Positions 1-20,528 of a stretch of 28,821 nt of DNA are shown one piece after another. The stretch's first letter is position 1. Each line of letters begins with the position of its first letter. The position numbers and the translations under genes are program-made. The stretch spans positions 1 through 28,821 of IMG/VR virus record IMGVR_UViG_3300030450_002583. One strand, written 5' to 3'. Under the pieces are notes generated by a model. It worked only from the letters and a program-made list of their open reading frames with translations. It searched no databases and was not told where the DNA came from. The DNA is from a virus.

Positions 1-143
1 CGCAAGCGCGCGCCTTGAATGAAATGGGTATCGACTTTCGGAAACGCCCCGATGGTAAGGTGATTGTCGTGGATGCAGATTTACCACTCCGCAACCGCGC
101 ACCAACACACAACACCGACGAGGCTTTTGTCTTTGGGTCGTAA
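1..143 (+). CDS. DUF4224-type small phage protein, C-terminal part
   Basis: Reading from base 3, an open frame with no stop runs to a TAA at 141-143 and gives 46 residues. The start lies left of the window. The visible part begins QARALNEMGIDF, then a basic stretch, then DGKVIVV. This matches the usual ending of DUF4224 proteins, short phage proteins (about 60-80 aa) encoded directly upstream of tyrosine integrases (family knowledge). They are suspected to act as recombination directionality or DNA-binding factors, but that is not established here. It overlaps the proposed integrase start by about 11 bases, so the two are probably translated together. The last 15 residues (NRAPTH... to GS) look unconserved. 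The family assignment rests on a short stretch plus gene context. Confidence 0.65.
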   Translation, partial: QARALNEMGIDFRKRPDGKVIVVDADLPLRNRAPTHNTDEAFVFGS

Positions 144-1242
144 GCGCACAACACACCACGGCTTGCCAGAACGATGGGCCTTTCAGCACGGCGCATACTA
201 TTATCGTGTGCCGCCTGGTGACAGTTCGCAATGGGACGGCAAAAAGCTGTTTCGACTCGGCACCGTCTATTCAGAGGCACTTGAGGTTTTCGCGGGTCGC
301 ATCGCGCAGGGAACAATCACCACGTTCGATCAACTCATCGATTCGTACATCATTTCGATCCTACCGTTAAAAGCAATAAGCACACAAACAGAAGATCGCC
401 GGACGCTGGACATTCTACGCCGCTTCCTGGGGGCGCAAGATGTGGCGAAGTTTCGCCCGAGCGATGGCCCGCGCCTGGAGAAACTTTTATTTGCGCGCAT
501 CGACGAAAACAACAAACGGCGCGAGAGAAAGTTTAACGGTTATCGGAGCGTCAAAAAGCAAATGTCGATGGCGCGCGATCTATTTGCTTTTGCCAAAACC
601 GAAACACTCATCGAAGGCAATCCTCTCGCAGACTTTCAGATGGACAAGCGACGGCGTGCAGCTCGCAACAAGAGCAAGGCACCGGCATTTATTCCATCAT
701 TTGCCCATATCGAAAAGTGTTTACCCTATGCCCCCGAGTGGCTAGGGCTCTACATTAGATTGAAAGTTTTAACAGGTGTACGACAGACCGATATTCTGCG
801 AATGGATGAAACCGTGAACATTCGCCAGGAGGGGTTATTCGTGGACGGTCACAAAGTCCTCGGCCATCGATCCGTTAAGGCACAGATTTTCACCTGGACT
901 AACGAGCTGCTGCTGGTCGTTTCAGCGATTCAAAAGCTGTGGCCCCACTCGCCGCTGTTTTTCCCTCGTCATGGGTTTAATTCGAAGGGTAAGCCCGAGG
1001 GGTTTAATGACGCCTGGGGCCGCTTCCGAAAGAAACTCGAAGGGGCGGGCCTGGAGCCCTTTGCAGAGCGCTATATACGCAATCGCGTGGGCTCCGAGGG
1101 GAGTGTCGCCGAGGCCCAAGAACGCCTCGGACACGCTGATTCTGCGACGACAGAGAAGTTTTATCGAGTCGATCCGGTTGTCGTGCAGCCGCTCGGATCG
1201 AATGGCAAATCGAAAAATATAATACAACCCCCTAAAATATAA
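133..1242 (+). CDS. int: tyrosine-recombinase integrase
   Basis: Site-specific tyrosine recombinase expected to integrate the phage into tRNA-Arg through the att core about 40 bp downstream. The frame is open from 64, but I prefer the TTG at 133. It sits 9 bases after GAGG (120-123) and gives an N-terminus starting GRKRTTHHGLPERW, as in integrases that follow DUF4224 genes. TTG 127 is an alternative. The product is 369 aa, a normal length. Numbered from TTG 133: an N-terminal arm-binding region with HGAYYYRVP (about 19-28), a core-binding region (about 55-180) and a catalytic domain. Catalytic residues are R217 (TGVRQTDI), K249, R316, H334 (LGHADSATTE) and nucleophile Y344. The usual HxxR box reads RYIR, with Arg in place of His at 313. 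The gene end overlaps the first arm-type repeat, so gene and attP are physically linked. Confidence 0.93.
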   Translation: MGRKRTTHHGLPERWAFQHGAYYYRVPPGDSSQWDGKKLFRLGTVYSEALEVFAGRIAQGTITTFDQLIDSYIISILPLKAISTQTEDRRTLDILRRFLGAQDVAKFRPSDGPRLEKLLFARIDENNKRRERKFNGYRSVKKQMSMARDLFAFAKTETLIEGNPLADFQMDKRRRAARNKSKAPAFIPSFAHIEKCLPYAPEWLGLYIRLKVLTGVRQTDILRMDETVNIRQEGLFVDGHKVLGHRSVKAQIFTWTNELLLVVSAIQKLWPHSPLFFPRHGFNSKGKPEGFNDAWGRFRKKLEGAGLEPFAERYIRNRVGSEGSVAEAQERLGHADSATTEKFYRVDPVVVQPLGSNGKSKNIIQPPKI

Positions 1243-4500: not shown

Positions 4501-4835
4501 TACGGTTTCGGGATCGCCGCTTTAATCTTTTCGCGCTCGATCTGCAACTGCACTGCCGCCGCGCTGTCGTCTGCAAACACACTCTCAAACGTGGCGATGG
4601 TCAGTGCTTGCATTGTGCATCCTGCGGCGTCATATGCCTCGCGGCGTTTGCGGGCATATTCCTGTGCGTCGTGATTGCTTACCCATGCCGCGTGCGCTAC
4701 TTCAATATCCGCAACTGTCGGTCGCTGTTCGCTGCTTATCCAATCTTTAATGTAAGTCCCATTCCCATCGTCCTGCAGAACGAAATCCTTTTCTGGAACA
4801 AAACCTAGCTCTTTCAGTCCTTCGGATGTAATCAT
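4500..4835 (-). CDS. tail-tip accessory protein, second copy
   Basis: This 111-aa protein is a paralogue of the 96-aa product at 6503-6793. Both read LGFxPxxDFxLxD near the N-terminus, then Wxx...P...I...AAWxS, then RKRxxxY, and end in K...KA..PK. Here the pieces are LGFVPEKDFVLQD, VAHAAWVS, ARKRREAY and KAAIPKP. Proteins of this kind usually follow tail-fibre or tail-tip genes and act as assembly helpers or minor tip components (family memory, XkdW-like style). Its start overlaps the stop of the 209-aa tail-tip protein (ATGA), so the two form a translationally coupled pair, as at 6503-7400. Confidence 0.7.
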   Translation of the reverse strand: MITSEGLKELGFVPEKDFVLQDDGNGTYIKDWISSEQRPTVADIEVAHAAWVSNHDAQEYARKRREAYDAAGCTMQALTIATFESVFADDSAAAVQLQIEREKIKAAIPKP

Positions 4836-5461
4836 GACAATTTATACCCACTGCAAAATGTATTAGCTTGCCCTCCCAGCATCACACCTGATGCCGCGTT
4901 TTGATTCATGAGTGCGTAAAATTCAATAGCATCCCCAACAGCTAAATCAAGCACCGCTGTCAAATTTTGCCCTAACAAAGTTGCCCTAGAACCATCAGTA
5001 TCTCTTTTAATCTGCTTGAACGCAGCGGCAGAACCACCAGAAGGGGTTTTATAAATAGCAAGCCAACCGTGACGGACTGCCTGACCGCCGCCAGTGTCAT
5101 CAAAAGTTGTCGTGATAGAAAAACTGTATTTACCGGCTTCACCCGACGGAACTGTAAAGCGATAATTTGTTGAATGATCAAAAGCAGAATCTGTATCCCA
5201 CTCTTCTGTGTTCATTGTTACTTTTGTCCAAGTATCATTAGATAGTCCTTGGTTTGCCGCAAGATACGCACCAAAGGATGGGGTATTGTCTCCCACCGTC
5301 AGCGTCACCCAACTCGCATCACCATCAGCGTCGGACTGTAAATACTTACCAGCACCAGGCGTTCCACCTGGTAGTTTGATTGTCTGCGTGCTCGTCCCGA
5401 TTGTGAGGACACTAGTGCCACCGGCTCTTGTTTCGATGGCGTCGGTTTTGAGTGTGCTCAT
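4832..5461 (-). CDS. putative tail-tip/receptor-binding protein, second copy
   Basis: A 209-aa protein in three parts. The N-terminal strand-rich stem (STLKTDAIETRAGGTSVLTI) probably docks onto the tail. The linker GAGKYLQSDADGDASWVTL (about residues 36-54) with VGDNTPSF is nearly identical to that in the product at 6795-7400. The C-terminal domain (about 65-209) contains EEWDTDSAF and FTVPSGEAGKYSFSITTTF and ends GYKLS. That domain resembles the C1q/TNF-like jelly-roll used as trimeric receptor-binding heads in phages (fold guess from the FxVPxxGxYxF pattern). Base composition is AT-richer than the capsid genes. Likely a surface recognition protein in a tail-tip array. Which receptor it binds cannot be told. 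Confidence 0.75.
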   Translation of the reverse strand: MSTLKTDAIETRAGGTSVLTIGTSTQTIKLPGGTPGAGKYLQSDADGDASWVTLTVGDNTPSFGAYLAANQGLSNDTWTKVTMNTEEWDTDSAFDHSTNYRFTVPSGEAGKYSFSITTTFDDTGGGQAVRHGWLAIYKTPSGGSAAAFKQIKRDTDGSRATLLGQNLTAVLDLAVGDAIEFYALMNQNAASGVMLGGQANTFCSGYKLS

Positions 5462-6794: not shown

Positions 6795-7400
6795 CTAAAC
6801 TCCTGCTAACCGGAAACCAGACATATGAGCGTACTGGATGTTGTCGGTATTGCTATAAATCAAAACCATCAGCTCCACATAATCTGATGCTGACAAATTT
6901 AATATCGCGTTTGCCGCTAAATAATGATGATTCGCATCTGGATCAGCGCTCCCAATGACTGTGTAGTCGTTCTTCGTCCCGTTCACCTTCAACCCCATAT
7001 ACACATTATTACTGGCGTTTATGTTGTTAAATTTCGCGCCATACGATATTGAATATTTGCCGCCTTCTCCTGATGGAACAGTAAATTTATTCGATGCGAA
7101 AGCACTATCTGTATCCCAATTTTCCGATCCCAGCGTTGCAACCGTTTCTGTGTCTGCAGTAATACTTTGAGTTGAAGCGTTATATGCAGACCACGACGGA
7201 GTGTTGTCTCCCACCGTCAGCGTTACCCAACTCCCATCACCGTCGGCATCAGACTGCAAATACTTTCCCGCGCCTGGTGAACCGCCCGATATTTTTATCG
7301 TGCCAGGAACTACAACCTTATCGCCCCCGCCCGATGCGCCTAGCGTTAAATCCGTGGTTGCGCCTTCTGGCTCGACCGTATCAACGAATAGTGTGCTCAT
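6795..7400 (-). CDS. putative tail-tip/receptor-binding protein, first copy
   Basis: A 201-aa protein whose ATG 7400 overlaps the tail-fibre stop (ATGA). It has an N-terminal stem (STLFVDTVEPEGATTDLTLG), a linker GAGKYLQSDADGDGSWVTL followed by VGDNTPSW (about residues 42-70), and a C-terminal domain with ENWDTDSAF, FTVPSGEGGKYSISYGAKF and a final SGFRLAGV. Stem, linker and WDTDSAF/FTVPSGExGKYS blocks are shared with the 209-aa product at 4832-5461, while the loops between them differ. This suggests paralogues with diversified binding surfaces. The C-terminal part looks like a trimeric C1q/TNF-type jelly roll (pattern guess). Likely displayed at the tail fibre end. Confidence 0.75.
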   Translation of the reverse strand: MSTLFVDTVEPEGATTDLTLGASGGGDKVVVPGTIKISGGSPGAGKYLQSDADGDGSWVTLTVGDNTPSWSAYNASTQSITADTETVATLGSENWDTDSAFASNKFTVPSGEGGKYSISYGAKFNNINASNNVYMGLKVNGTKNDYTVIGSADPDANHHYLAANAILNLSASDYVELMVLIYSNTDNIQYAHMSGFRLAGV

Positions 7401-8773: not shown

Positions 8774-11212
8774 TTAGCCCCCAAACAGTGCCCCTATGTT
8801 TGGCTCCCTGGACGGTGATACTTGTCCTGGGCGCCACCAATGCTCCTGGTCGTAGTCTTTTCGACGATTGCGTTCTTCGCGTCGAAAGCTCCGACCAGCT
8901 TTAGAGTCAACCGCATTCTGGAGTTGATCCCACATCGCTCGCTCGAGGGCGAGGCGTGAGTACCAAAGTGAACCACCTGGGGAATACCGCTCGGCGAATT
9001 TTAGCATTTCCCGCCCCAGGTTGGTATCATCACCGTGCGTTAACTCGTACAGGTTTCCCGCTGTTAATTTCCATGCGTCATCGATAAACCCTGCCGCCGG
9101 GCCCATCGTTGTCGAAACAATGCCCTTACCGAATCGACTCTCGGCAGAGTATAAAAAGTCACCAAATATTCCCGCGCCACCACCCTGTATAAATGCAGCC
9201 GACCAGAATTTTGCGCTGGTCATATCTCGAGGATCGCGACCTCTTGCCAGGTCTTTCATGGTCATTGCAACCGCGCCCATTACCGTCGTCGATACCGCCA
9301 GGCTGCCGAGGTACGCCGCCTTGTCTTGCCATCCACTCTGGCGAGCTCCCCTCATTAAATGCGAGGTGATGATGGTTATGGGGAAGGACTTAAATTGTCC
9401 GACACTTCTGGCAAGCTCGCCGATTAACGTGCCGCGTTTTTGCCCCCAGGTGGTAAATGTTCTCGATCTGGAATCCGGCACAGGAACGGCGAAATCTGTT
9501 TCGCTAAAAATCATTTCCTGTATACGCGTTGTTAGATCCATTCGGGCGCCTTCATCCACATCGGCACGTTTCATCAGGTTCTCGACACTAAAAAACCCCA
9601 CATCCTTATGTTTGATTAGATCGGTGCCACGCATCACATCCCATTCGCTCGCCTTAATCCCATAACCCTCGAACGTATCGCGCAACGGTTTCGGTAAATC
9701 TTTGAATTGTTTGCCTACGTTGTCAGCGATGTACCCCATAAACTCCATGCCGAACGCTTTACGCATTGAATCCGTCCAGGTCGAGAGCAACGAGGCGCGC
9801 ATTGTGAAATCGGCCACCTTTGCCGAGAACCCCGCACCCGTCACCTCGACATGACGATTACCGCCCAATGCCCGCACGACCCACGCATCGGCAGTTAATC
9901 CAGCTCGCACCGCAAACATTCGGTCGTCAGGGCTCGACATAATTTCCAACCCACGCTTTAACACCTTAGTCGCACCCATGCCGTTGAACTTCGCGGTATG
10001 ACGAACGAACGCGATATCAGATATTGCACTTAGCATCGCACCGCCTAAATGCGCTGCGGTTAAATAATTCCTCACCGCACCGGAGAAGTTAGCCAGCATC
10101 ACATTCTCGACTGCGTTCGCTTTGCCACTCACAACATTCCAATGACTCTCGAGCATTTCTTTGTTGTTCCACGAAACACCCGCCCCATCGAGCTCGCCCC
10201 GTTTGATTGCCATATCCCGCAAATAGCGAAACGTTGCATCTGGATTCGGGCCCAATACTTCGAGCTTGGCAATATCGTGCGCCATACCGTTAAGGTGATC
10301 GGTTAGCGTCGTATAAAGATCGGCGTGCCCAAACTCATCGTGATACTTCAACCAGGAATCAGCGTCCTTGAAATGCAATACGCGATGATCCTGGCGACGG
10401 TTCGCCAACTTACTGCCTCCCATTTGCCCAGGCGTAAGATCAGACAATCCATTAGTTCGAATTGTGTTGTAGGCTTTCTCGAGCATGATGCGAAACTCTG
10501 CATCGTTTAATGGGATGCCCACCTCGTTCGTTATCTTGCTGCGATCAAGCAGCGGCGTAATCTTATCCATCCACTCGCCGACCGCCATACGCCCCACTAA
10601 TACCGAATCGTGGAATTGCGGCATACCCCAATCAGCCAGTTTTGGGATCGATCCACCCGCGCGATTGAATCGTCGGCGAGCAGCCTCGGCGACATCAGAC
10701 CACAGCGTCGCCGCTTCTTTGGCTGATGCGTTGCCCGTGCTTTCACCCATGAGCTCACGCAGCATTAATCGAGGTAATTCGACATCCTGAGAAAGCCCGA
10801 GGTTTGTGGTTCGCATCTTGTTCATTGCATCCGCGAATTGCGAGTGCAGCCAACCTTTAACAGCAGTTGCGCGTTGATCGATATTTGATACTCGCGCCTC
10901 GCGCCCTGGGTCTTTCGCTAATAATCCCCATATACCCTCGACAAACCCCCTCGGATGCGCGAGCGCAGCCTGTGTTGCCTGGTGGGTTTTAATGGCTTGC
11001 AGCCCTGCTTGTCGGCGTTTAAGCGCGGTGTCACGCTGTTTCGCAAGCAATACCGCTTGCTCTGCCTGTGTCCTGGCGGCCTCGGGCGATACTTCACCGC
11101 GCAGCGTTAGTGAGTTTTGTAGCGCGTCGATTTGACCAGCGACATGCTGCGCCTCTGCCCTGGTGATTCGACCAGCGGCTACAGATTCCTCTAGGCAATC
11201 GTTAAAGTTCAT
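8774..11212 (-). CDS. internal virion (ejection) protein, 812 aa
   Basis: It starts at ATG 11212, overlapping the stop of the 1182-aa gene (ATGA), and ends one base before the tail fibre start. N-terminal residues 1-90 are helical and charged (ITRAEAQHVAGQIDAL, EAARTQAEQAVLLAKQR). The middle is a long mixed helical region. At about 655-685 lies a hydrophobic stretch (YLGSLAVSTTVMGAVAMTM). It ends EHWWRPGQVSPSREPNIGAL, a closing motif I recall from large internal proteins of temperate podoviruses. Size, position between internal proteins and tail fibre, and lack of any enzyme motif suggest a core or ejectosome component, in the place of the C-terminal part of T7 gp16. No lytic transglycosylase motif is seen. 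Function by position, not by homology I can name. Confidence 0.75.
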   Translation of the reverse strand: MNFNDCLEESVAAGRITRAEAQHVAGQIDALQNSLTLRGEVSPEAARTQAEQAVLLAKQRDTALKRRQAGLQAIKTHQATQAALAHPRGFVEGIWGLLAKDPGREARVSNIDQRATAVKGWLHSQFADAMNKMRTTNLGLSQDVELPRLMLRELMGESTGNASAKEAATLWSDVAEAARRRFNRAGGSIPKLADWGMPQFHDSVLVGRMAVGEWMDKITPLLDRSKITNEVGIPLNDAEFRIMLEKAYNTIRTNGLSDLTPGQMGGSKLANRRQDHRVLHFKDADSWLKYHDEFGHADLYTTLTDHLNGMAHDIAKLEVLGPNPDATFRYLRDMAIKRGELDGAGVSWNNKEMLESHWNVVSGKANAVENVMLANFSGAVRNYLTAAHLGGAMLSAISDIAFVRHTAKFNGMGATKVLKRGLEIMSSPDDRMFAVRAGLTADAWVVRALGGNRHVEVTGAGFSAKVADFTMRASLLSTWTDSMRKAFGMEFMGYIADNVGKQFKDLPKPLRDTFEGYGIKASEWDVMRGTDLIKHKDVGFFSVENLMKRADVDEGARMDLTTRIQEMIFSETDFAVPVPDSRSRTFTTWGQKRGTLIGELARSVGQFKSFPITIITSHLMRGARQSGWQDKAAYLGSLAVSTTVMGAVAMTMKDLARGRDPRDMTSAKFWSAAFIQGGGAGIFGDFLYSAESRFGKGIVSTTMGPAAGFIDDAWKLTAGNLYELTHGDDTNLGREMLKFAERYSPGGSLWYSRLALERAMWDQLQNAVDSKAGRSFRREERNRRKDYDQEHWWRPGQVSPSREPNIGALFGG

Positions 11213-14200
11213 CGTCTAATGCAAGTGAATAGATCAAGTGTGTGTGCATCTTCTTCGGCCAGCTCCTCGAACACCTGGCGCGCGGTTCTGATTTCGGTGA
11301 TGATTTCGCCGTTTTCGTCAACGCGTGATGCTGGTATTTCCAGGTCGGGGTTTTCTCTAAGCGCCTCGCGCAGCTCGAGCGCTTCCGTTTCTGTATAAGC
11401 GGTTAATTCGGGATCGTCTTCTAATAATTCTTTAATGTTCTCGTTATATTCCCGCTCAAATTTGTTCCACTCCATGCGGTACATCTCATCGGATTGTTGC
11501 GATATGGTTAGGTTGTCCCAACCATCAATACCCCAACCCTCGCCCTGTCTTTCGGGTATAATTTGACCCATGGCAGGCCCACCAGATTCACCACCCTCGG
11601 ACAACGTAATTGCCCGTCTTTCCTGGGACGGTATGCCCGTCGTAGTAACTCGCGACCCTGCCGATAATGCGCTGTCTGCCTGGTCTAGTGTTAAGCCTGG
11701 CAAGCGTTGGCGCGCGGTTCCCGTTCCGGTTGTACTAGACGAAGCGCGCAACCTATCAGAGAGTGATTGGAACTCTAGGTTTGATCGTTGGTTTGCAGCG
11801 TCATAGAGCACCGCCATCTCATTCTGTAATCGGTCATAGTCGGCCTGATTCTTGATTATTGTTCTGCCGTCCTTCCCCACTTCAAAGGTTTCGCGCCACA
11901 CATAATAAAGATCGTGTCCGCCTTCTTTGAATTTGGCCGTCCACATTTCGCGACCAATAATTTGCACTTCGCCGATTCGCCCGTCTGAATGACGAATTAG
12001 AATTTTATTGTCTACATAGCCTTGTACCGCGTGCCGGTTCCATCCCTCATCGATTAGCGCCAGGCGCTTACTTAATGCGCTAATAATGGCTGCCGCTTGT
12101 GCTGGTGTATCCACAACAAACGAGGTGCGCGTCACATCGGTAATTTCTGAATATTCCCCATCGTATTTATCCGCCACCTTGCGCTCGATACTCTCACGAT
12201 CTTTATGTCGCCACCCTGTGCCCTCTTGCGCCGGTGGTGGAACGTGCTCCCCACCCACCTCGGCAGCTACCTCGTCAGCAATTGCCTCGAGCTTGTTCTG
12301 GTTTGCTATTGCTATCTTGTCGTCAGTACCGACCAGACCGCGAATGGTCTTGACCTTTAGCTGTGACGACCTAAATGCCGCTTCGACTAAATCTTTCTCG
12401 ACCTCTGTTAGTGTTTGCAGCGCAATCGGGCGCCCCACTTCCGGCGTTAAATCAGGCGTTAACTCGGCGGGCGAAGGCGCGCGGTTCTCTGCTTTAATGC
12501 GCGCGCGTATGTCGTCATATAACGCTTGATCCCTTAGTGGTGATCCATCACTGGCGGTTGGGGTTGTTTCGAGCGGGCGTCCGCCAGGGCCATCCGCAAC
12601 CCGTCCGCTATCGCTAACAACTCCTCCCCGTCGAGCGAGTCTAAATTCGTTTCCCTCGAGAAAAGCCCGAGTGACAAGTCCGACGTTTTCTCCGTTTTTG
12701 ATCCTTTGGGCCGCTTTGTTGAGCGCTTCCGAGATGGGGCCTTTCGTGTTGGCGAGTCTCGATAGGGCTTCGATTGCTGTGTCATCTTCTGCAAACCTCT
12801 CTAGGTTAGCCTCGCGATTCATTCGATTGCCGAGGCCGGTTAACGCCGCATCCTTATCGAGTACCGTTCTGAGTAATGCACGGTCTTGTTTAAGTAAACG
12901 CAACGAGTTTTCGAGCACCTGGGCGCGCTCCTTAAATAACGTTTCTGCTAACGTCATACCGCCGAATAGGTCTTGTGTTTCGACGCGCTGAAACCCCGCT
13001 ACCTTTATTTGTTCTGTAATCATGCGCGCCTGGAGGCGATTGGCTGGATTACTTCGTACCAATGCTTGCAGCGCGGCGATCTGCCCTGGCCCTTGCGGGA
13101 TTAACTCACCAACAACCGCCGCCAGGCGGTGCTCTTTTGGCTTGAGTGCGTTAGCTGCATACTGAAACGCCTCATCGTCAAGGCGCGCCATGTTGCGGCC
13201 GTCGCGCACCAGGGCAGAGTTAGGCGGTAATACGGCGTTGTAATCGTCGCCCATTTCTCGCAACACCTTGGCAACGTCGAGAATGCTGCCCGTGTCTTGC
13301 TGAATATTCGTGATGGCTGCGCGGATTCGCACATCGCGCGGTGTGTACCCATCAGCCTCTCGATAGATTCGCGCGCCGATTTTAATTGTTTCTGGGTCTG
13401 CGCCTTCTGCAATCAGTCGATTCGCTAGGCCGATACGCTGGTGCCCATCAACCACAAACCGCTCGCCCGCCTTATTCTCGAAAACAGTGATTAAACCGGC
13501 TGCTTCTTCATCCCATTTGCTAACGCCTTTCAGCCTGGCGGTAACGCCCGCTGCATCGCCGCCCTCTTTGAATTGGAATGTTTCGGCGTCTACTTTTATC
13601 TTTTGCGGATCAACGCGCACCGGATCGGGCACATCGCCCATCCGTATCGGTTGATGCTCTGGTTTGACCGGCATTGAAGCCGTTGGCGCCTCACCTCTTG
13701 AAAGGCTATCCCAGGCGATATCGAGATTCGTAACGTGCAGCAGCTCATCATCAGGACGCACAACAATCGTTAACGCTCCATCTGCACCGACTTCCCAACC
13801 GCGCGGGGTTTCCCCTACCGCATCCGCCCATCGCCACATTACCTCTGCGGCTTCTGTTTCTCCCTCAACATTTAATCGATTGCCAGTGTCACGAAGTACC
13901 GCCGCCGCTTCTTCTTTGGTATGTGTATCGCGCAGCGTGCGATATAACGCCTTGCCACTTAACGCACCGCCCTCGAGGATGCCGCGAAACGCAGCCGCGC
14001 CGCCACTCACCATTAACGTGACCATCGCAGCATCGGCTATTGTGTAATCCCTGCCGAGTGCTTGCTTTTGAAAATACACATGTGGCTGAATAATCGACGC
14101 CTCGATGCCACCAAATATCGCCGCGTCGGTTTTCATTCCGTGAAAGATTTTGCCCGCAGTCCCTAGATGCGCGGCCTTTGCTGCGGTTAACGGCCAGGAG

Positions 14201-14757
14201 AGAAACATCGTACCGGCGACAACAGGATCTTGCATTGCGCCCACCGCCACACCGCCGAGCTGCCCCCAGAACGCATCATGTGGTGATGCCGTATTCTTTG
14301 CGGTTTGGGCGCGTTTATGCAGCGCATCAATGTCGGCAATGGTTTTCGGTTCGAGCTCTTCCCAGGTTAAAAAGTTTGTGCCGTGTTTTTTGTTGATCTC
14401 TTTAATTCGGTCACTTTGGGACTTGTACCAAATCGCATTAGGACTATCTTTGTTGATGTTGAGAAGACCACCCACTTGATGGCTAAACTGGTGCGACCGA
14501 AACGAGCCAGACGGGGGAATGTTGTAATACTTAAACTCTGGATCGACTTCTCCAATCGCCTCCATTTGATCGTAAATGGCTTTTTCTTGAAAGCGATGAA
14601 CGCCCCCCGTCGTGTCTTCTGTCGCGAATGATTTACGCACCGCTGAAAACACCTCACCGCCCGTATATCGTTCTTGCGCTTCTTCTGGACTACTGACTAC
14701 GTTAAGACTCGCCAACCGTCGGCGTCGGTCTGTCACATCAGTATAGAAGCCAACCAT
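11209..14757 (-). CDS. ejected polyvalent protein with ParB/DdrB-like and RelA/SpoT-like domains
   Basis: A 1182-aa protein. Residues 1-150 are helical and unassigned. Residues about 160-265 are hydrophobic and Gly/Ala-rich (QLGGVAVGAMQDPVVAGTMF; VTLMVSGGAAAF), perhaps membrane-inserting on ejection. Residues about 385-590 resemble a ParB/DdrB-like domain, with the signature VVDGHQRIGLANRL (D437-R441) followed by helices. Residues about 845-960 resemble a RelA/SpoT nucleotidyltransferase: R850xK852 and SIERK (856-860), ITDVTR with D874, GY914, GEVQI with E930, and H948DLYY. The C-terminus is acidic. Such multi-domain 'polyvalent' proteins are described in phages and plasmids and are thought to enter the host with DNA. 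It lies between a 1035-aa protein and an 812-aa protein, where T7 has gp16. It is probably carried in the capsid and injected. Enzyme activity is inferred. Confidence 0.8.
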   Translation of the reverse strand: MVGFYTDVTDRRRRLASLNVVSSPEEAQERYTGGEVFSAVRKSFATEDTTGGVHRFQEKAIYDQMEAIGEVDPEFKYYNIPPSGSFRSHQFSHQVGGLLNINKDSPNAIWYKSQSDRIKEINKKHGTNFLTWEELEPKTIADIDALHKRAQTAKNTASPHDAFWGQLGGVAVGAMQDPVVAGTMFLSWPLTAAKAAHLGTAGKIFHGMKTDAAIFGGIEASIIQPHVYFQKQALGRDYTIADAAMVTLMVSGGAAAFRGILEGGALSGKALYRTLRDTHTKEEAAAVLRDTGNRLNVEGETEAAEVMWRWADAVGETPRGWEVGADGALTIVVRPDDELLHVTNLDIAWDSLSRGEAPTASMPVKPEHQPIRMGDVPDPVRVDPQKIKVDAETFQFKEGGDAAGVTARLKGVSKWDEEAAGLITVFENKAGERFVVDGHQRIGLANRLIAEGADPETIKIGARIYREADGYTPRDVRIRAAITNIQQDTGSILDVAKVLREMGDDYNAVLPPNSALVRDGRNMARLDDEAFQYAANALKPKEHRLAAVVGELIPQGPGQIAALQALVRSNPANRLQARMITEQIKVAGFQRVETQDLFGGMTLAETLFKERAQVLENSLRLLKQDRALLRTVLDKDAALTGLGNRMNREANLERFAEDDTAIEALSRLANTKGPISEALNKAAQRIKNGENVGLVTRAFLEGNEFRLARRGGVVSDSGRVADGPGGRPLETTPTASDGSPLRDQALYDDIRARIKAENRAPSPAELTPDLTPEVGRPIALQTLTEVEKDLVEAAFRSSQLKVKTIRGLVGTDDKIAIANQNKLEAIADEVAAEVGGEHVPPPAQEGTGWRHKDRESIERKVADKYDGEYSEITDVTRTSFVVDTPAQAAAIISALSKRLALIDEGWNRHAVQGYVDNKILIRHSDGRIGEVQIIGREMWTAKFKEGGHDLYYVWRETFEVGKDGRTIIKNQADYDRLQNEMAVLYDAANQRSNLEFQSLSDRLRASSSTTGTGTARQRLPGLTLDQADSALSAGSRVTTTGIPSQERRAITLSEGGESGGPAMGQIIPERQGEGWGIDGWDNLTISQQSDEMYRMEWNKFEREYNENIKELLEDDPELTAYTETEALELREALRENPDLEIPASRVDENGEIITEIRTARQVFEELAEEDAHTLDLFTCIRR

Positions 14758-14760
14758 TCG

Positions 14761-17700
14761 TTATTGTCCAGGCGGGAATCGAAACACAAATAACCCCCCG
14801 TTCTTGTTTGCGATGTATTTCTCATTACCAGACTGTAATAACCAATAACCGTTAGCGCGTTCACCAAACCCACCAGCGGGCACAAATTTATAAATCGAAC
14901 CCTGGTTGCTGATAAGGCCAACGCTGCCTCGAATCCCTTTTAATACTTCGGCCGCGTCGTGGTTTTCATGTAGGCCACCCATCGCCACAATATCCTCTGA
15001 TGTGATGGCTCGCCGTGCTTTTATCCAATCGTCTTTCGTCCATCCACGCTTGGGGGCGAGTATCCTGTATTGCAGATCACGACCCCCGCTCGATTCATCC
15101 CAATCAACCGTGATGATTCCGCCCGTAACATCGTTTACTGCCTGGGTTAAGGTCGTGCCGTAATTGTCGCGGAATGATTGGGGATCAAACCCCGAATCGG
15201 TTTGCCCCATTTTGATAAAGGCTTTGTACGCCATGCTTGCAACAACAGTATCGACCATTGCCTCTAACTCTCGCGGGTCGTCGCTTGGCGGCATTGCTGT
15301 AGCCAGCTCTTGCATGATATCTAGCCGTAGCTGCTTATGCTCTGGCATGAATGGGGCGTTAACTTGAGTGCGCCCTATCAGGACTTCGCGAGCAACACTC
15401 GGCGCCCCATCAGTCATTAACACACCCGCCATTCCAATCTCGATTGCGCCCTTCTTATCGAACTGCCCAAAAATCTGCTGCGCTCCAGATGTACCGAGAC
15501 TTTCGACCATTGCCTCAATCATCATTAGCTGCTGCTCTGGGCCCGCTGCCGTCATGTGCTCTACTAATCGATCCACCTCTGCGGGTCTTAATGCGGGCAC
15601 ATCAAAGCCCACACCCCGCCGCCCTGGTATGCGTGTTTCTTCTGGATCGACATCACCCTCGAGGTAACGCACCGTTTGCGGCCCAATGCCCGCCTCTGCT
15701 GTCATTGCCGCATCCGCGCGCATCGTTAGGAAATTGCTGAAATTTCTGATATCGCCAAAATCCAGATCGGACATTGCGGGCAAATCATTCGCATCTAATA
15801 AACCCATATCGACCGCGACACCCAACCCGTCGCCCGCTTTGATGCGGTTGAGTGCTTGGGAGTGCCAAGCTGCAATGTGATCGTAAACTTCTGCCTCAGT
15901 TGAACCAAACGCCTCGCCCTTTTGTTCCAGTAACCAGGACGCTTGGCTCTGACGACTACCATCAACCGACACCGGCGGCAACATTTGAAACTGGTTTAGC
16001 GCGTCGTGTTTTTGGCGGGCGAGCGCGAGGGGTTTTTCGTATTTTGTGTTTCTTGCAGCGTCTTCAAGTAAAGCCCACTCGCCGGGTTCGATTTTCTTAT
16101 CCGTTAACAGCGCGGTTTTCATGTTATTCACTTGCGCTGCTATCTCGGTTTCTTTCTCCGCTATCAGTTGATTGTGTAGCGGCTCCAGGCGGGCGAAAAG
16201 TTCTGCGGTGTAGGGGTTAGACTCTTTCGACCTTTTCCATGCGTCCATCATGGCAACTCGTTGGTCTTTCGGTAAACCGAGCGCCTTGCCGACTTGTTCG
16301 TAAAACTCCCGTTCCCTGGTTAACTTTTGGTGTAGGTCAGTGCCTTCGACTGCCGTTAACAGCTCCTCTAGTTTCCCCTCGTCTATCTTTAACTCTGGAT
16401 TGCCTGGGCTCATCACCGACACCAGGGTTTTCATTTCGTCAATCATCAGATCAACGGCGGTGCGATTATCTTCTGTTGTCTTCGCCTGGCGCGCCTTATA
16501 GACCTTTTCAATAATCGTCAGTGATCGCATGGCGAGATCACCTAATTCGTCTTTCGATTTATAAAAGTTAATCGCGGCCTCAACCTCGCGCAGCGGCATT
16601 GCTTTGTAATACTTCACCCGTTCGTGAATGTTCGACCACTTCACAAAACGGGCGCGATGCGTTGGATTGTCAACGGTCGCCTGATTAAGCGCCTTTAATG
16701 TTTCTTCTGGCGGCGACATTCCATTTTTAATGGTGTTTTCTATATTGGTTAACTCTTTTGCAATCTGCTTATCGACCGCCGATTGCCCCGCCTTAACGCG
16801 TGCTTGCTCCGCTTTAGCCCGTGAACGTGCCGAACTGATTTCGGTTTTTGCTTCTCGAATTAATCGCTCGCGCAATGCGGGCGTTAAATGCATTTTGTCG
16901 AGGTAGGCTCCATCGGGGTCTATATTGCCTTCTCGATCAACCGACACTCTAATCCCGATCTCATCCGGCGGGGTTTCCTCGAACCGCTTTAATGCCGCCT
17001 CTGCTGCCGCTAATCCTTCATTCTTAATCGTTCTAACAAACGTGCCTTTTAAGGTTTGAACCAACAAATCATCCTGTAACTTAAACAGCGCCTTATCAAC
17101 ATCATCTTGCTCTAACAATCCACTCTCGACGCCCTCCTGTAAATTATTTTCGAGTTGCGCGTATTTGATAAACGCCTCTTGGGGATCGCCATTAAACGCG
17201 TCGATGGTGATCTCGTCGGTTAATGCTTTCGCATTGCGAACAATGTGTGCCGCATCGTGTTTGCGTGAGCTCTCAAGTGCCCGCTCTCGAATCTTTACTA
17301 ATGAGCGTGCGGCCCGCGTATTGATTTCGTTATTGACAAATAGCTTGTTCTTTCCGGTTAATCCGTCGGTCATGCCCGAACGGTATGCCTCAACGCTGCC
17401 GCTATAGGCTTCTTCATTCTCTGGATTTTCGAGCTCCAGGCGCGCCATCGTTGTGATAACGTCGGTTTGTGTTGCGCTCTTATAGGCCGCCATTTGCCCG
17501 TTGTAATAGGCTTTTGAGCGAACGCTGATATTGTTTGTATCAAGCTCTGGCGGTATTAATTCCCCAGTCTCAGGGTCGCGATGATTCCCCGCCTCGATCC
17601 CTTCGGCCTCGGCCTCGATTGCGATTTTTTCTGCGGCTTGCTCGTATAACGTATCTGACCATTGACTGAGCATTTGCGTTAATTGTGAGCCTTCCTGCTT

Positions 17701-17868
17701 TGCTGCTTGCGCCTTGGCAAGCCCTGGCGTTGTCCGTGGTCGTCGCAGATTAGGAGCTGGTGGTGGCGGCGTTAACCTGGGCGCAGCGGGCGTGGTAATC
17801 CCTTCCGCGTAACGGTACGGATTCATCCCTGGTTTATATTGCGCGTCGCTTTTGTAACGTTCAACCAT
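14761..17868 (-). CDS. internal virion protein, 1035 aa (gp15 position)
   Basis: A long, almost wholly helical, charged protein that starts with a proline-rich segment (AAPRLTPPPPAPNLRRP, about 28-45), then helices rich in Ala/Glu/Lys. No catalytic motif was found. The end (GYWLLQSGNEKYIANKNGGLFVFRF) is beta-rich. Placed directly after the gp14-like gene (6 bp gap) and before the polyvalent protein, it takes the position of T7 gp15, a tube-forming ejection protein of 747 aa. It is longer than gp15. The next gene begins 3 bp after its stop. Homology to gp15 is not visible by eye, so the role is inferred from order, size and helical content. Confidence 0.75.
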   Translation of the reverse strand: MVERYKSDAQYKPGMNPYRYAEGITTPAAPRLTPPPPAPNLRRPRTTPGLAKAQAAKQEGSQLTQMLSQWSDTLYEQAAEKIAIEAEAEGIEAGNHRDPETGELIPPELDTNNISVRSKAYYNGQMAAYKSATQTDVITTMARLELENPENEEAYSGSVEAYRSGMTDGLTGKNKLFVNNEINTRAARSLVKIRERALESSRKHDAAHIVRNAKALTDEITIDAFNGDPQEAFIKYAQLENNLQEGVESGLLEQDDVDKALFKLQDDLLVQTLKGTFVRTIKNEGLAAAEAALKRFEETPPDEIGIRVSVDREGNIDPDGAYLDKMHLTPALRERLIREAKTEISSARSRAKAEQARVKAGQSAVDKQIAKELTNIENTIKNGMSPPEETLKALNQATVDNPTHRARFVKWSNIHERVKYYKAMPLREVEAAINFYKSKDELGDLAMRSLTIIEKVYKARQAKTTEDNRTAVDLMIDEMKTLVSVMSPGNPELKIDEGKLEELLTAVEGTDLHQKLTREREFYEQVGKALGLPKDQRVAMMDAWKRSKESNPYTAELFARLEPLHNQLIAEKETEIAAQVNNMKTALLTDKKIEPGEWALLEDAARNTKYEKPLALARQKHDALNQFQMLPPVSVDGSRQSQASWLLEQKGEAFGSTEAEVYDHIAAWHSQALNRIKAGDGLGVAVDMGLLDANDLPAMSDLDFGDIRNFSNFLTMRADAAMTAEAGIGPQTVRYLEGDVDPEETRIPGRRGVGFDVPALRPAEVDRLVEHMTAAGPEQQLMMIEAMVESLGTSGAQQIFGQFDKKGAIEIGMAGVLMTDGAPSVAREVLIGRTQVNAPFMPEHKQLRLDIMQELATAMPPSDDPRELEAMVDTVVASMAYKAFIKMGQTDSGFDPQSFRDNYGTTLTQAVNDVTGGIITVDWDESSGGRDLQYRILAPKRGWTKDDWIKARRAITSEDIVAMGGLHENHDAAEVLKGIRGSVGLISNQGSIYKFVPAGGFGERANGYWLLQSGNEKYIANKNGGLFVFRFPPGQ

Positions 17869-17874
17869 TACGGG

Positions 17875-18639
17875 TTAGCCGGTCAGTGATTGATAACGAT
17901 TGATGCCGCTAAACAATGTATTCATGCCGCTCATAAATCCCTGGCGTTGTGCTGATCGACCTTGTATGCGGTACGAATCGGCCTCGAGCGCGTAAGATCG
18001 CCGCATACTGCTGGCCTGCATTTCGTATGCGGTTTCAGTGAGACTCGCCGACGACAGTGCGCTCGCCAGTTCAACACCAGCAATCTCGCGCATTAGCGAA
18101 TTACGCTCACGCATCAGCTTCGCGCGTTCACCACCAAAGAATTTAAGATCGACAATACGCTCGGCAGTATCTCCTCGATCAATCGCTTTATCTGCTTCGT
18201 ACTCGAGGAAATCGACGCGCTGCATATGCAACGGACTCCCGTCAAACGCAACAATGCCCTGGGCAGCTCGCGCTGCCGTTTGGTTACTCAGTGTGTCGAG
18301 GATGCTTTTGGTTCGCATCATCATTCGATCACGCGCTGCGCGTTTCTCATCGCGAATATCTTTTTTAACACCCTGCTCGAATAGATCGACTTTTTTATCT
18401 TCGAGCCTGGAGCTCTTTATCGCGAAATCGTGCTTATAAGCCGCTTGCTCTTGTTGATAGGCAACCTGTAATGCGCCAAACTCCTCGACGTTCGTTGCAT
18501 CTTCTTCGCCAAATTCTTCGATCAGGCTCGCGTGTTCGTACAGTCCGGCCTTGGCTTTACTTCCAGCAGAGGCAGACATAATGCCGGATACAGCAGACAT
18601 TCCCAACGACATCGCTGGAGAAGCAGCAGCAGCGCCCAT
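17875..18639 (-). CDS. gp14-like internal virion protein
   Basis: A 254-aa protein. I chose ATG 18639 over the longer frame from 18729 because it follows GGAGG by 7 bases and begins 2 bp after the tail tubular protein B stop. The longer form would overlap that gene by 88 bp. The N-terminus is hydrophobic and small-residue rich (GAAAASPAMSLGMSAVSGIMSASAG), then long helices. The segment LSNQTAARAAQGIVAFDGSP (about 150-170) is the recurring motif of internal virion protein B of T7-type phages (family memory). The likely role is the outer-membrane channel component ejected first during infection. Context, with tail tube genes upstream and large ejection proteins downstream, matches T7 genes 11-12-13/14-15-16. 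Confidence 0.83.
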   Translation of the reverse strand: MGAAAASPAMSLGMSAVSGIMSASAGSKAKAGLYEHASLIEEFGEEDATNVEEFGALQVAYQQEQAAYKHDFAIKSSRLEDKKVDLFEQGVKKDIRDEKRAARDRMMMRTKSILDTLSNQTAARAAQGIVAFDGSPLHMQRVDFLEYEADKAIDRGDTAERIVDLKFFGGERAKLMRERNSLMREIAGVELASALSSASLTETAYEMQASSMRRSYALEADSYRIQGRSAQRQGFMSGMNTLFSGINRYQSLTG

Positions 18640-18641
18640 AA

Positions 18642-20528
18642 TTAAGCCTCCACCTCTATCGCTAAACCGAGCAACGTAAACGGTTGCGGGTCTTGTTGTG
18701 TAATGGTGATTTGCGCCAGGCGATCCCAACCCAATAAATGCGTTTCTTTGATTCCGGTAAATCCTGGTGGTGTGGTGTCGAGAATGTCCTCGCCGAAATC
18801 CCTATCAGCCAGGTAAATGTCATTCACATAGACGCCGAGTGATTGGTAGAGATCCGTCACTACACGCACCAAACGCTTGTACCTGGTCAATATCGGCCCG
18901 TTCTGAAAGTCAGAATTCAGCGGCATGGTCTTCACTGTGATGTCGTAGTCGAGCCCAACCTCTACCGTTGTGCCATTACGCGCCAGAGTAATCGCACCGC
19001 CGGACGGCGTAGCGTTATCCATGATTGAGCTATCCGCTCTTACTCGACAGGACTGTCCGTTGAGGTGCGCGAGCCCTGAGACTGCGGTGCCTGGTGAGCC
19101 AAGGGTTTGCAGTTTGTTCGCATCGGTATAAGTGTTTTCGTCCGCCTTCTCGAGAAAGCGAACCGCAACGGAATTAATCGTACGCAAGACGGAAAAATAA
19201 ACCTCATCGACAATAACCGCGACCGATTCGATGGTTCCGGTGGTGCTCCATTTCGTCCAGCCACCGACTTCCTGGTGTCGTAGCGTGTTAAAAACCGCCA
19301 TCGTGCCGTCAGTGTTAACGAGGTATACATAGTTCGCATCATCCGTTGAAGTGCCCCGCCTGGCGTCCATATCGACCGGCCCGCTGATTAAATGCGATGC
19401 CATCAACGAGGAACTATTTGAGGTGTACGCTTCTTCTTCGTATGTCCACAAAAACTCGCGCGCTGCTTTGCCCGATCTTTCAATAAAGAGAATTGCACCA
19501 TCGATATTGATCGGCCGCACACTGCCAGAGCCGAATTGTGTTTGTCGCTTAACAGAGGAGTTAGATGGCGTGATCGGTGAGTCGCTGATATAAAACTCTG
19601 CGCCCGAGGTGAATATCGTTAGATGGCGACCGGCGTATACCGCTTTAATTGCGTTTACCTGGTCAGTGTCGAGCGTGATATCAATCGCATCATCGGCGGC
19701 GCCTGTGCCCACATTGAAATTAAAGAAGTCACTAATCACAGATGCCCACAACGTCTGCGGTCGATTCTTCGATCCACCAAACCATAACCGCTGCTCGTAA
19801 AATGTCGCTGTTTTTGGATAGCCAGCGGTCGCACTCCATACAGGCTCATCGGTGCTAGTGACCACAGCATTATCCGAATGACTTGCGGCAGATGTAGAGC
19901 TGGCGCCACGCGTGCAGCCGGTGAATGTTGTTGCTGTAACGCCCGTGTAACTAATCGTTTCACTATCAATCACGATACTGCCAGCGGTAGCAAACCCCGC
20001 CGTACTGTCTACCGTAATCGTTGTAACAGACGCATCAATCGCCCCGTTGAGTGCATCGGTTGTCGCATAGTTAAACGTTGGAATATTTAATAGCGTGATA
20101 TCTGATAGCGTCCAGGCGGTGTGCGAACCGCCGCGTACCAGCTTCGCGGGCGCGTGATCCTCATGGACAATAATCATGGTGTCTGCTGATTGCGTCCAGT
20201 TAAGATCGAATAGCTGCGCCTCGGTATAGGTAGAGGTAACGTCTGCCTGTTTAACGCCGTCTTTATATATCGCGATGTTGTTGTTCGAGAACGCAATCAA
20301 ATAGGTTTGCTCGACGTTGAACGCAAACATACAGATGCGCGACTTACCTGGTAGCGTTGCCTGGTACGCCATCCCAGGGCGTCGCTTTAATCCGCCCTGC
20401 GGTAACGATAGAACGTTGGTGCCCTCCGCGCAGCCCTGGTAATACTGTTTGATATCCGTACGCGCGGCTAGGCGCGGGTCTAATACCCCCGACACAAAAT
20501 TGGTCTGAAAGTTTAGAACGCGCGGCAC
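18642..20528 (-). CDS. tail tubular protein B (T7 gp12 type)
   Basis: A 628-aa nozzle protein of the short tail. The N-terminal signature is FVSGVLDPRLAARTDIKQYY, then GCAEGTNVLSLPQGGLKRRPG, the classic opening of T7 gp12-type proteins (xGxLxPRLxxRxDxxxYxxG...N...PxGGxxRPG). A beta-rich body follows (for example TITVDSTAGFATAGSIVIDS, an inserted fibre-like module at about residues 165-205). It ends LGLAIEVEA. T7 gp12 is 794 aa, but many marine and temperate relatives are 600-700 aa. Its ATG overlaps the stop of tail tubular protein A by 1 base. Late structural gene. Confidence 0.93.
   Translation of the reverse strand: MPRVLNFQTNFVSGVLDPRLAARTDIKQYYQGCAEGTNVLSLPQGGLKRRPGMAYQATLPGKSRICMFAFNVEQTYLIAFSNNNIAIYKDGVKQADVTSTYTEAQLFDLNWTQSADTMIIVHEDHAPAKLVRGGSHTAWTLSDITLLNIPTFNYATTDALNGAIDASVTTITVDSTAGFATAGSIVIDSETISYTGVTATTFTGCTRGASSTSAASHSDNAVVTSTDEPVWSATAGYPKTATFYEQRLWFGGSKNRPQTLWASVISDFFNFNVGTGAADDAIDITLDTDQVNAIKAVYAGRHLTIFTSGAEFYISDSPITPSNSSVKRQTQFGSGSVRPINIDGAILFIERSGKAAREFLWTYEEEAYTSNSSSLMASHLISGPVDMDARRGTSTDDANYVYLVNTDGTMAVFNTLRHQEVGGWTKWSTTGTIESVAVIVDEVYFSVLRTINSVAVRFLEKADENTYTDANKLQTLGSPGTAVSGLAHLNGQSCRVRADSSIMDNATPSGGAITLARNGTTVEVGLDYDITVKTMPLNSDFQNGPILTRYKRLVRVVTDLYQSLGVYVNDIYLADRDFGEDILDTTPPGFTGIKETHLLGWDRLAQITITQQDPQPFTLLGLAIEVEA

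Follow-up and report, generated by a model that had tools for sequence, protein, structure and literature searches.

A RelA/SpoT-type synthetase domain in an exchangeable slot of a probable ejection protein of short-tailed phages

Alarmone-type synthetases are known from type VI secretion system (T6SS) effectors, toxin-antitoxin modules, MuF phage proteins and secreted enzymes. Two of them matter most here: Tas1/Apk1, a T6SS effector of Pseudomonas aeruginosa (PDB 6ox6), and SaEAS, an exported alarmone synthetase (PDB 8vx3). The group containing Apk1/Tas1 and SaEAS makes (p)ppApp or both alarmones. Among phages, the closest precedent with known chemistry is provided by the MuF-Apk2 toxins of temperate phages, in which an Apk-type synthetase is likewise part of a phage structural protein (PMC12226406). 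Iyer et al. (2017, PMC5512222) described polyvalent proteins, which are multidomain proteins combining a DdrB-like ParB domain with effector enzymes and are predicted to be injected. The passages of that article covered here report RelA/SpoT domains with DdrB-ParB in Helicobacter prophages, polyvalent RelA/SpoT domains in epsilonproteobacterial and spirochaete (pro)phages and in MuF proteins, and zeta-type kinases in MuF proteins and conjugative elements. Here we analyze a stretch of viral DNA of 28,821 nucleotides (IMG/VR record IMGVR_UViG_3300030450_002583, positions 1 to 28,821; hereafter the window). On its minus strand (11209..14757) lies an open reading frame for a multidomain protein of 1182 amino acids (aa), probably an ejected virion protein. 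This protein contains a RelA/SpoT-type synthetase domain in a slot that, in related phages, is filled by this kind of synthetase, by a zeta-toxin-like kinase or by no enzyme at all.

A preliminary description of this DNA, made from the sequence alone, had proposed a RelA/SpoT-type fold on the basis of an ordered set of landmarks, and all of them are found at the residues it gave: R850-H-K852, S856-I857-x-x-K860, I872-x-D874-x-x-R877, G913-Y914, G929-E930-V-Q-I and H948-D-L-Y-Y952. Single-sequence searches with the full-length protein returned no RelA/SpoT match in Pfam, NCBIfam or PDB; two PDB matches were dismissed as chance. Against the Pfam RelA_SpoT model (PF04607), the single window sequence reached an E-value (E) of 0.015 and 16 bits, under the gathering cut-off of 27, which is a library threshold and not a biological requirement. 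The domain family is diverged from this model. With profiles built from relatives, the resemblance stands well above chance. A profile of only two sequences ranked Tas1 first among 177,635 PDB sequences (E 0.035), and the match to Tas1 (6ox6) rose to E 2.4e-16 with 9 domains and to 2.4e-27 with 41. When capsid-type domains were left out, the profile of the remaining 29 podoviral domains matched Tas1/Apk1 at E 3.9e-25, followed by SaSAS (4.5e-5), 3l9d, 2be3 and RelA on the ribosome (about 0.008).

Structure prediction gave the same answer. The AlphaFold2 (AF2) model of the cassette, residues 785-1000 (11758..12405, minus strand), built with 41 sequences, has a mean predicted local distance difference test score (pLDDT) of 93.6 and a predicted template modeling score (pTM) of 0.88. 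A Foldseek search of PDB produced 51 matches at E<=1e-3, and all of the 50 listed are synthetases of the RelA/SpoT homologue (RSH) or small alarmone synthetase (SAS) kind, with Tas1 first (E 2.1e-8) and SaEAS second, although the template modeling (TM) scores are moderate (0.59 to Tas1). Neither the profile nor the structure search led to an unrelated fold. We regard the RelA/SpoT-type assignment of residues of about 846-960 as secure. In the BFVD database, the best match of the model is a 1129-aa "DdrB-like domain-containing protein" from an uncultured phage; therefore, proteins of this kind are already present in public databases.

The synthetase core, residues 846-960 (11878..12222, minus strand), carries K852, K860, D874, R877, Y914, D916, K918, E930, Q932, H948 and Y951. 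K852, K860, D874 and R877 are invariant in all 41 relatives, most of which are just 19-36% identical to the window's domain; E930 is kept in all 40 relatives with sequence at this position, and Q932 in 37. Both acidic residues named in the preliminary description as needed for catalysis are thus present, and neither is lost in any relative with sequence at its position. Its RxK motif stands only in its second half, as K852 is invariant but R850 is poorly kept, being replaced by a gap in 38 of the 41 relatives. In SaEAS the corresponding residues are D121, R124, E182 and Q184, and in Apk1 they include R330 and E382 (PMC12691689); the D874/R877 spacing, E930 and Q932 coincide with them. The fold, the catalytic Asp and Glu, the DxxR spacing and the E-x-Q motif are therefore common to the phage domain, Tas1/Apk1 and SaEAS.

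The conservation bears on the possibility that the domain is a catalytically dead remnant kept as a structural part of a virion protein. The weak Pfam match and the poor conservation of the canonical motif residue R850 could be read in this way. However, the catalytic residues are invariant among very divergent sequences, and the ratio of nonsynonymous to synonymous substitution rates (dN/dS) relative to an 84% identical protein is 0.168 in the synthetase core, close to that of the whole gene (0.163), compared with 0.468 in the linker before the domain. Purifying selection on the synthetase domain is supported by these values. Moreover, relatives with an empty slot are otherwise intact, so the synthetase is not structurally needed. 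We consider a dead remnant very improbable, and reject it on the grounds of conservation and selection.

A second alternative is that the domain pyrophosphorylates the 3'-CCA end of tRNA and so blocks translation, as the toxSAS enzymes FaRel2 and PhRel do. These enzymes belong to the same superfamily, and PhRel itself is phage-encoded (PMC12691689). Nevertheless, an Arg three residues past the catalytic Asp, the spacing of the Apk/EAS kind, is found in 41 of 41 sequences, and Tas1 and SaEAS are the closest in structure. The data support the Apk1/Tas1-SaEAS group, rather than the tRNA-modifying toxSAS, as the nearest branch, and a tRNA-directed activity appears improbable.

The acceptor side of the active site fits neither known signature. 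The syn3 acceptor motif is SxH in guanosine-specific RSH enzymes and GxN in Apk2 (PMC12226406). GxN also characterizes the Tas1/Apk1-SaEAS group, whereas 34 of 35 podoviral members carry D916-x-K918. Because this motif is neither SxH nor GxN, the choice of acceptor looks changed, while donor binding and catalysis look intact as far as can be judged from the sequence.

The relatives were collected because the window sequence alone is barely recognizable as RelA/SpoT. A degenerate DNA pattern around E-x-Q...AK, more than half of whose matches were unrelated, detected L009, a full-length relative 45% identical to the 1182-aa protein. It also gave seven loci with the synthetase domain in proteins of 470-510 aa, most of which, judged by eye, resemble phage minor capsid proteins. 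In L005, L006, L010, L014, L015 and L020 the domain is C-terminal in minor-capsid-like proteins of about 474 aa, and in L018 it stands in another context; the acceptor motif of the minor-capsid-like fusions mostly ends in M instead of K. A search with an alignment of three whole proteins yielded 225 loci, and the 80 best were retained. An alignment-based viral scan starting from two close sequences recovered only the already known relative, and two scans of genome contigs found no prophage or host relative, although their pattern filter may miss distant ones. The closest relative is the 84% identical protein of IMGVR_UViG_3300031801_000036, the only locus of this similarity in IMG/VR (81-84% identical to the window's).

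The 1182-aa protein fits the polyvalent type, with an N-terminal region, a DdrB/ParB-like domain, an enzyme slot and a conserved C-terminal tail; a ParB-like domain and an effector enzyme are thus joined in one multidomain protein encoded beside structural genes. The N-terminal region, residues 1-377 (13627..14757, minus strand), is matched in relatives by its own profile and contains one mildly hydrophobic stretch (residues 243-261, Kyte-Doolittle mean 1.52). The DdrB/ParB-like domain and the helical extension that follows it span residues 378-710 (12628..13626, minus strand). The domain matches phrog_10691 (E 1e-53) and a ParB-like PHROG (E 0.024), and its DGHQR motif is invariant in 39 relatives; none of the 39 members scanned gave a Pfam ParB match in this domain. 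Its AF2 model (pLDDT 89.7) is closest in PDB to KorB (probability 0.99, but E 0.0098), a ParB protein, with sulfiredoxin as a weaker match. The C-terminal tail, residues 1108-1182 (11212..11436, minus strand), was defined from the terminal sequences of all relatives and is kept whatever the slot contains.

Beyond what the preliminary description saw, the synthetase domain turns out to be one of several alternative contents of an exchangeable slot, located between the DdrB/ParB-like domain and the conserved tail. Every locus was searched with separate profiles for the N-terminus, ParB-like domain, synthetase and tail. Among 83 slot genes, 39 carry the synthetase, a number biased upward because the search query itself carried a synthetase, 28 carry a zeta-like kinase and 16 carry neither. 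About six members of the last group are fragments truncated where a contig stops and two are giant proteins, so that about 7-8 intact proteins lack a cassette. Of 27 alternative tails, 25 have a match to Pfam Zeta_toxin (best E 4.9e-39); these tails also match epsilon-zeta structures (E 1.8e-12) and, weakly, AvrRxo1 (E 1.7e-4). AvrRxo1 is a 3'-NAD kinase. The zeta-like kinase occupies the slot in L034, L037-L040, L050, L074, L075, L077, L081-L085, L089-L093, L095, L096, L098, L103, L104 and L106. The tail is recognizably the same across all three states. For example, L009 (synthetase) shares 68% identity with L029 (no cassette) before the slot and 81% in the tail; the corresponding values for L061 (synthetase) and L090 (zeta) are 70% and 69%.

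In a tree of the ParB domain with 68 rows, the synthetase label requires a minimum of 15 changes, of which well-supported branches force 8, and synthetase versus zeta alone requires 13; this is a quick tree, and the pattern would look no different had recombination taken place within the gene. In either case, by exchange or by within-gene recombination, the cassette moves relative to its surroundings. That the same slot can hold a synthetase, a zeta-like kinase or nothing suggests that these phages swap enzyme payloads delivered at infection. The passages of Iyer et al. searched (PMC5512222) do not describe a podoviral slot alternating between synthetase and zeta. Matches of single relatives to ART-PolyVal, DUF3990 and a transglycosylase-like domain hint that the slot may have other contents as well. 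In L026 (Ruegeria phage 45A6) and L080, the ParB-like domain is found inside giant proteins of about 3,900-4,060 aa.

The gene neighborhood is that of the structural genes of a short-tailed phage, in the order head-tail adaptor/portal-like, capsid, tail tube, nozzle, the 284-aa, 1035-aa, 1182-aa and 812-aa proteins, and tail fiber. The tail nozzle protein (18642..20528, minus strand) matches Phage_nozzle PF25675 (E 7e-12) and phrog_376 (E 3e-149). The 284-aa gene (17875..18729, minus strand; homologue in 42 loci) holds a position like that of T7 gp14, from which a similar role may be supposed. The 1035-aa gene (14761..17868, minus strand), in a T7 gp15-like position, has a homologue directly upstream of the slot gene in 64 loci and encodes a probable ejection protein; it was not identified in Pfam, PHROG or PDB, and neither a transglycosylase nor a known ejection protein was recognized in it. 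The gene that follows the slot gene encodes an 812-aa virion structural protein (8774..11212, minus strand; phrog_684, E 8e-197), which has a homologue beside the slot gene in 74 loci.

The position of the slot gene, among large virion proteins between nozzle and tail fiber, is therefore that of the T7 gp14-gp16 genes, typical of ejection-protein genes as the preliminary description had held. In T7, too, the last proteins are large, and the C-terminal part of gp16, the largest core protein, presumably passes into the cytoplasm of the host (review PMC8954989). However, four proteins are present here, T7 has no payload enzyme of this kind, and searches revealed no sequence similarity to the T7 core proteins. 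It is thus gene position that suggests an ejection role. An integrase gene (64-1242, plus strand; phrog_1, E 1.6e-14, Pfam below cut-off) lies on the strand opposite to the structural genes, and the phage may thus be temperate. No tRNA genes were found in the window. Downstream of the tail fiber, two proteins of about 200 aa (4832-5461 and 6795-7400, minus strand) have the stretch GGxPGAGKYLQSDADGDxSWVTLTVGDNTPS in common and differ in their C-terminal parts.

The preliminary description saw no antitoxin-like partner, and in the window and the relatives examined there is indeed no adjacent immunity or antitoxin gene. On either side the neighboring frame overlaps or directly adjoins the slot gene, the 812-aa gene starting inside its 3' end, which leaves no room for one. 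Exceptions to this tight packing are L052, a large outlier with a seemingly split neighbor, and L027, with a 31-base gap. In this respect the phage protein resembles SaEAS, which has no adjoining immunity gene, and differs from Apk1, which has one. MuF-Apk2 toxins have the MuF head protein at the N-terminus, the toxin at the C-terminus and the immunity genes IapK and Aph1, whereas the slot here is internal to a podoviral ejection-type protein. The route of delivery would also differ, as a virion protein would here replace PAAR/T6SS in the case of Tas1/Apk1 and Sec in that of SaEAS. A podoviral ejection-type protein with a single synthetase/zeta slot, no immunity gene and a diverged acceptor motif was not found in the literature searched, although many subscription papers were outside its coverage.

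We think it rather probable that the 1182-aa protein is of the polyvalent type and serves as an internal virion (ejection) protein of a podovirus, carrying in its exchangeable slot an active RelA/SpoT-type pyrophosphokinase that acts in the entry phase. The protein would be packaged in the virion in a few copies and ejected ahead of the DNA, presenting the enzyme domain in the host cytoplasm. The enzyme would then move pyrophosphate from ATP onto the 3'-OH of an acceptor of the nucleotide type, for which adenine and guanine nucleotides are the likeliest candidates. As a result, the first minutes of infection might be shifted in the phage's favor, the benefit being either a slowed host metabolism or the removal of an immune signal.

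Several observations weigh against this proposal. First, the presence of the protein in the virion is suggested by gene position and by the PHROG label of its neighbor. Second, no cultured phage with the synthetase domain was found: tblastn searches of 50,697 phage records with the domain, and with two other relatives as queries, gave zero matches. Third, D916-x-K918 departs from both GxN and SxH, K918 occupies the position of the ATP-contacting N370 of Apk1, and, at the sequence level, only the donor/catalytic side appears clearly conserved. Fourth, Apk1 and SaEAS work at about 1e5 turnovers per min (PMC12691689). By our own estimate, four to six copies with this rate could within minutes drain a pool of a few million ATP molecules, harming the phage too. 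The enzyme would then have to be controlled, work more slowly or act on something scarcer.

A rival reading is an active toxin making (p)ppApp or (p)ppGpp, which would stop the metabolism of the host as the phage enters or kill competitors, whether co-resident or superinfecting, the phage tolerating a toxin made late. Tas1/Apk1 and SaEAS, the closest relatives with solved structures, have potent synthetase activity (PMC12691689). The same role has been proposed for the MuF-Apk2 polymorphic toxins, and the prophage MuF-Apk2 enzymes are toxic, with (p)ppApp as their sole product (PMC12226406). In addition, the other content of the slot, zeta, is also a toxin-family enzyme. However, the Apk1 and Apk2 loci have immunity genes, for which the overlapping or abutting frames leave no place in the loci examined here, ATP drain at entry would hurt the infecting phage, and the acceptor motif differs. 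A toxin of this kind is thus a serious possibility, but one we hold at somewhat below even chances.

Alternatively, the payload might serve counter-defense. The synthetase and the zeta-like kinase would each modify a hydroxyl group on a molecule of the nucleotide type. This target would be an immune signal or a cofactor of the host, such as NAD+ or ADP-ribose derivatives, and not bulk ATP or GTP. An acceptor motif unlike known signatures and yet itself conserved, the missing immunity gene, the repeated swapping expected of an arms race and the match of zeta tails to AvrRxo1 are all consistent with it. The shared substrate is, however, our own supposition, and we consider this explanation unlikely. 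Slightly less doubtful, though still speculative, is a broader picture in which a large group of uncultured podoviruses uses a polymorphic entry-payload slot. It would hold either a RelA-fold pyrophosphokinase of new specificity or a zeta-fold kinase, each directed at nucleotide-like host molecules (immune signals, cofactors) and disarming defense or metabolism before phage gene expression.

To the known settings of the alarmone synthetase fold, these short-tailed phages add a probable DNA-ejection protein, in which the fold has no immunity partner and trades places with a zeta-toxin-like kinase. The conserved yet unfamiliar acceptor motif makes the question of its substrate directly testable, and the natural swap series of synthetase, kinase and empty slot offers ready-made comparisons for the purpose of the payload. 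If the payload is active, the nucleotide chemistry of the host would be altered before the phage genome is transcribed.
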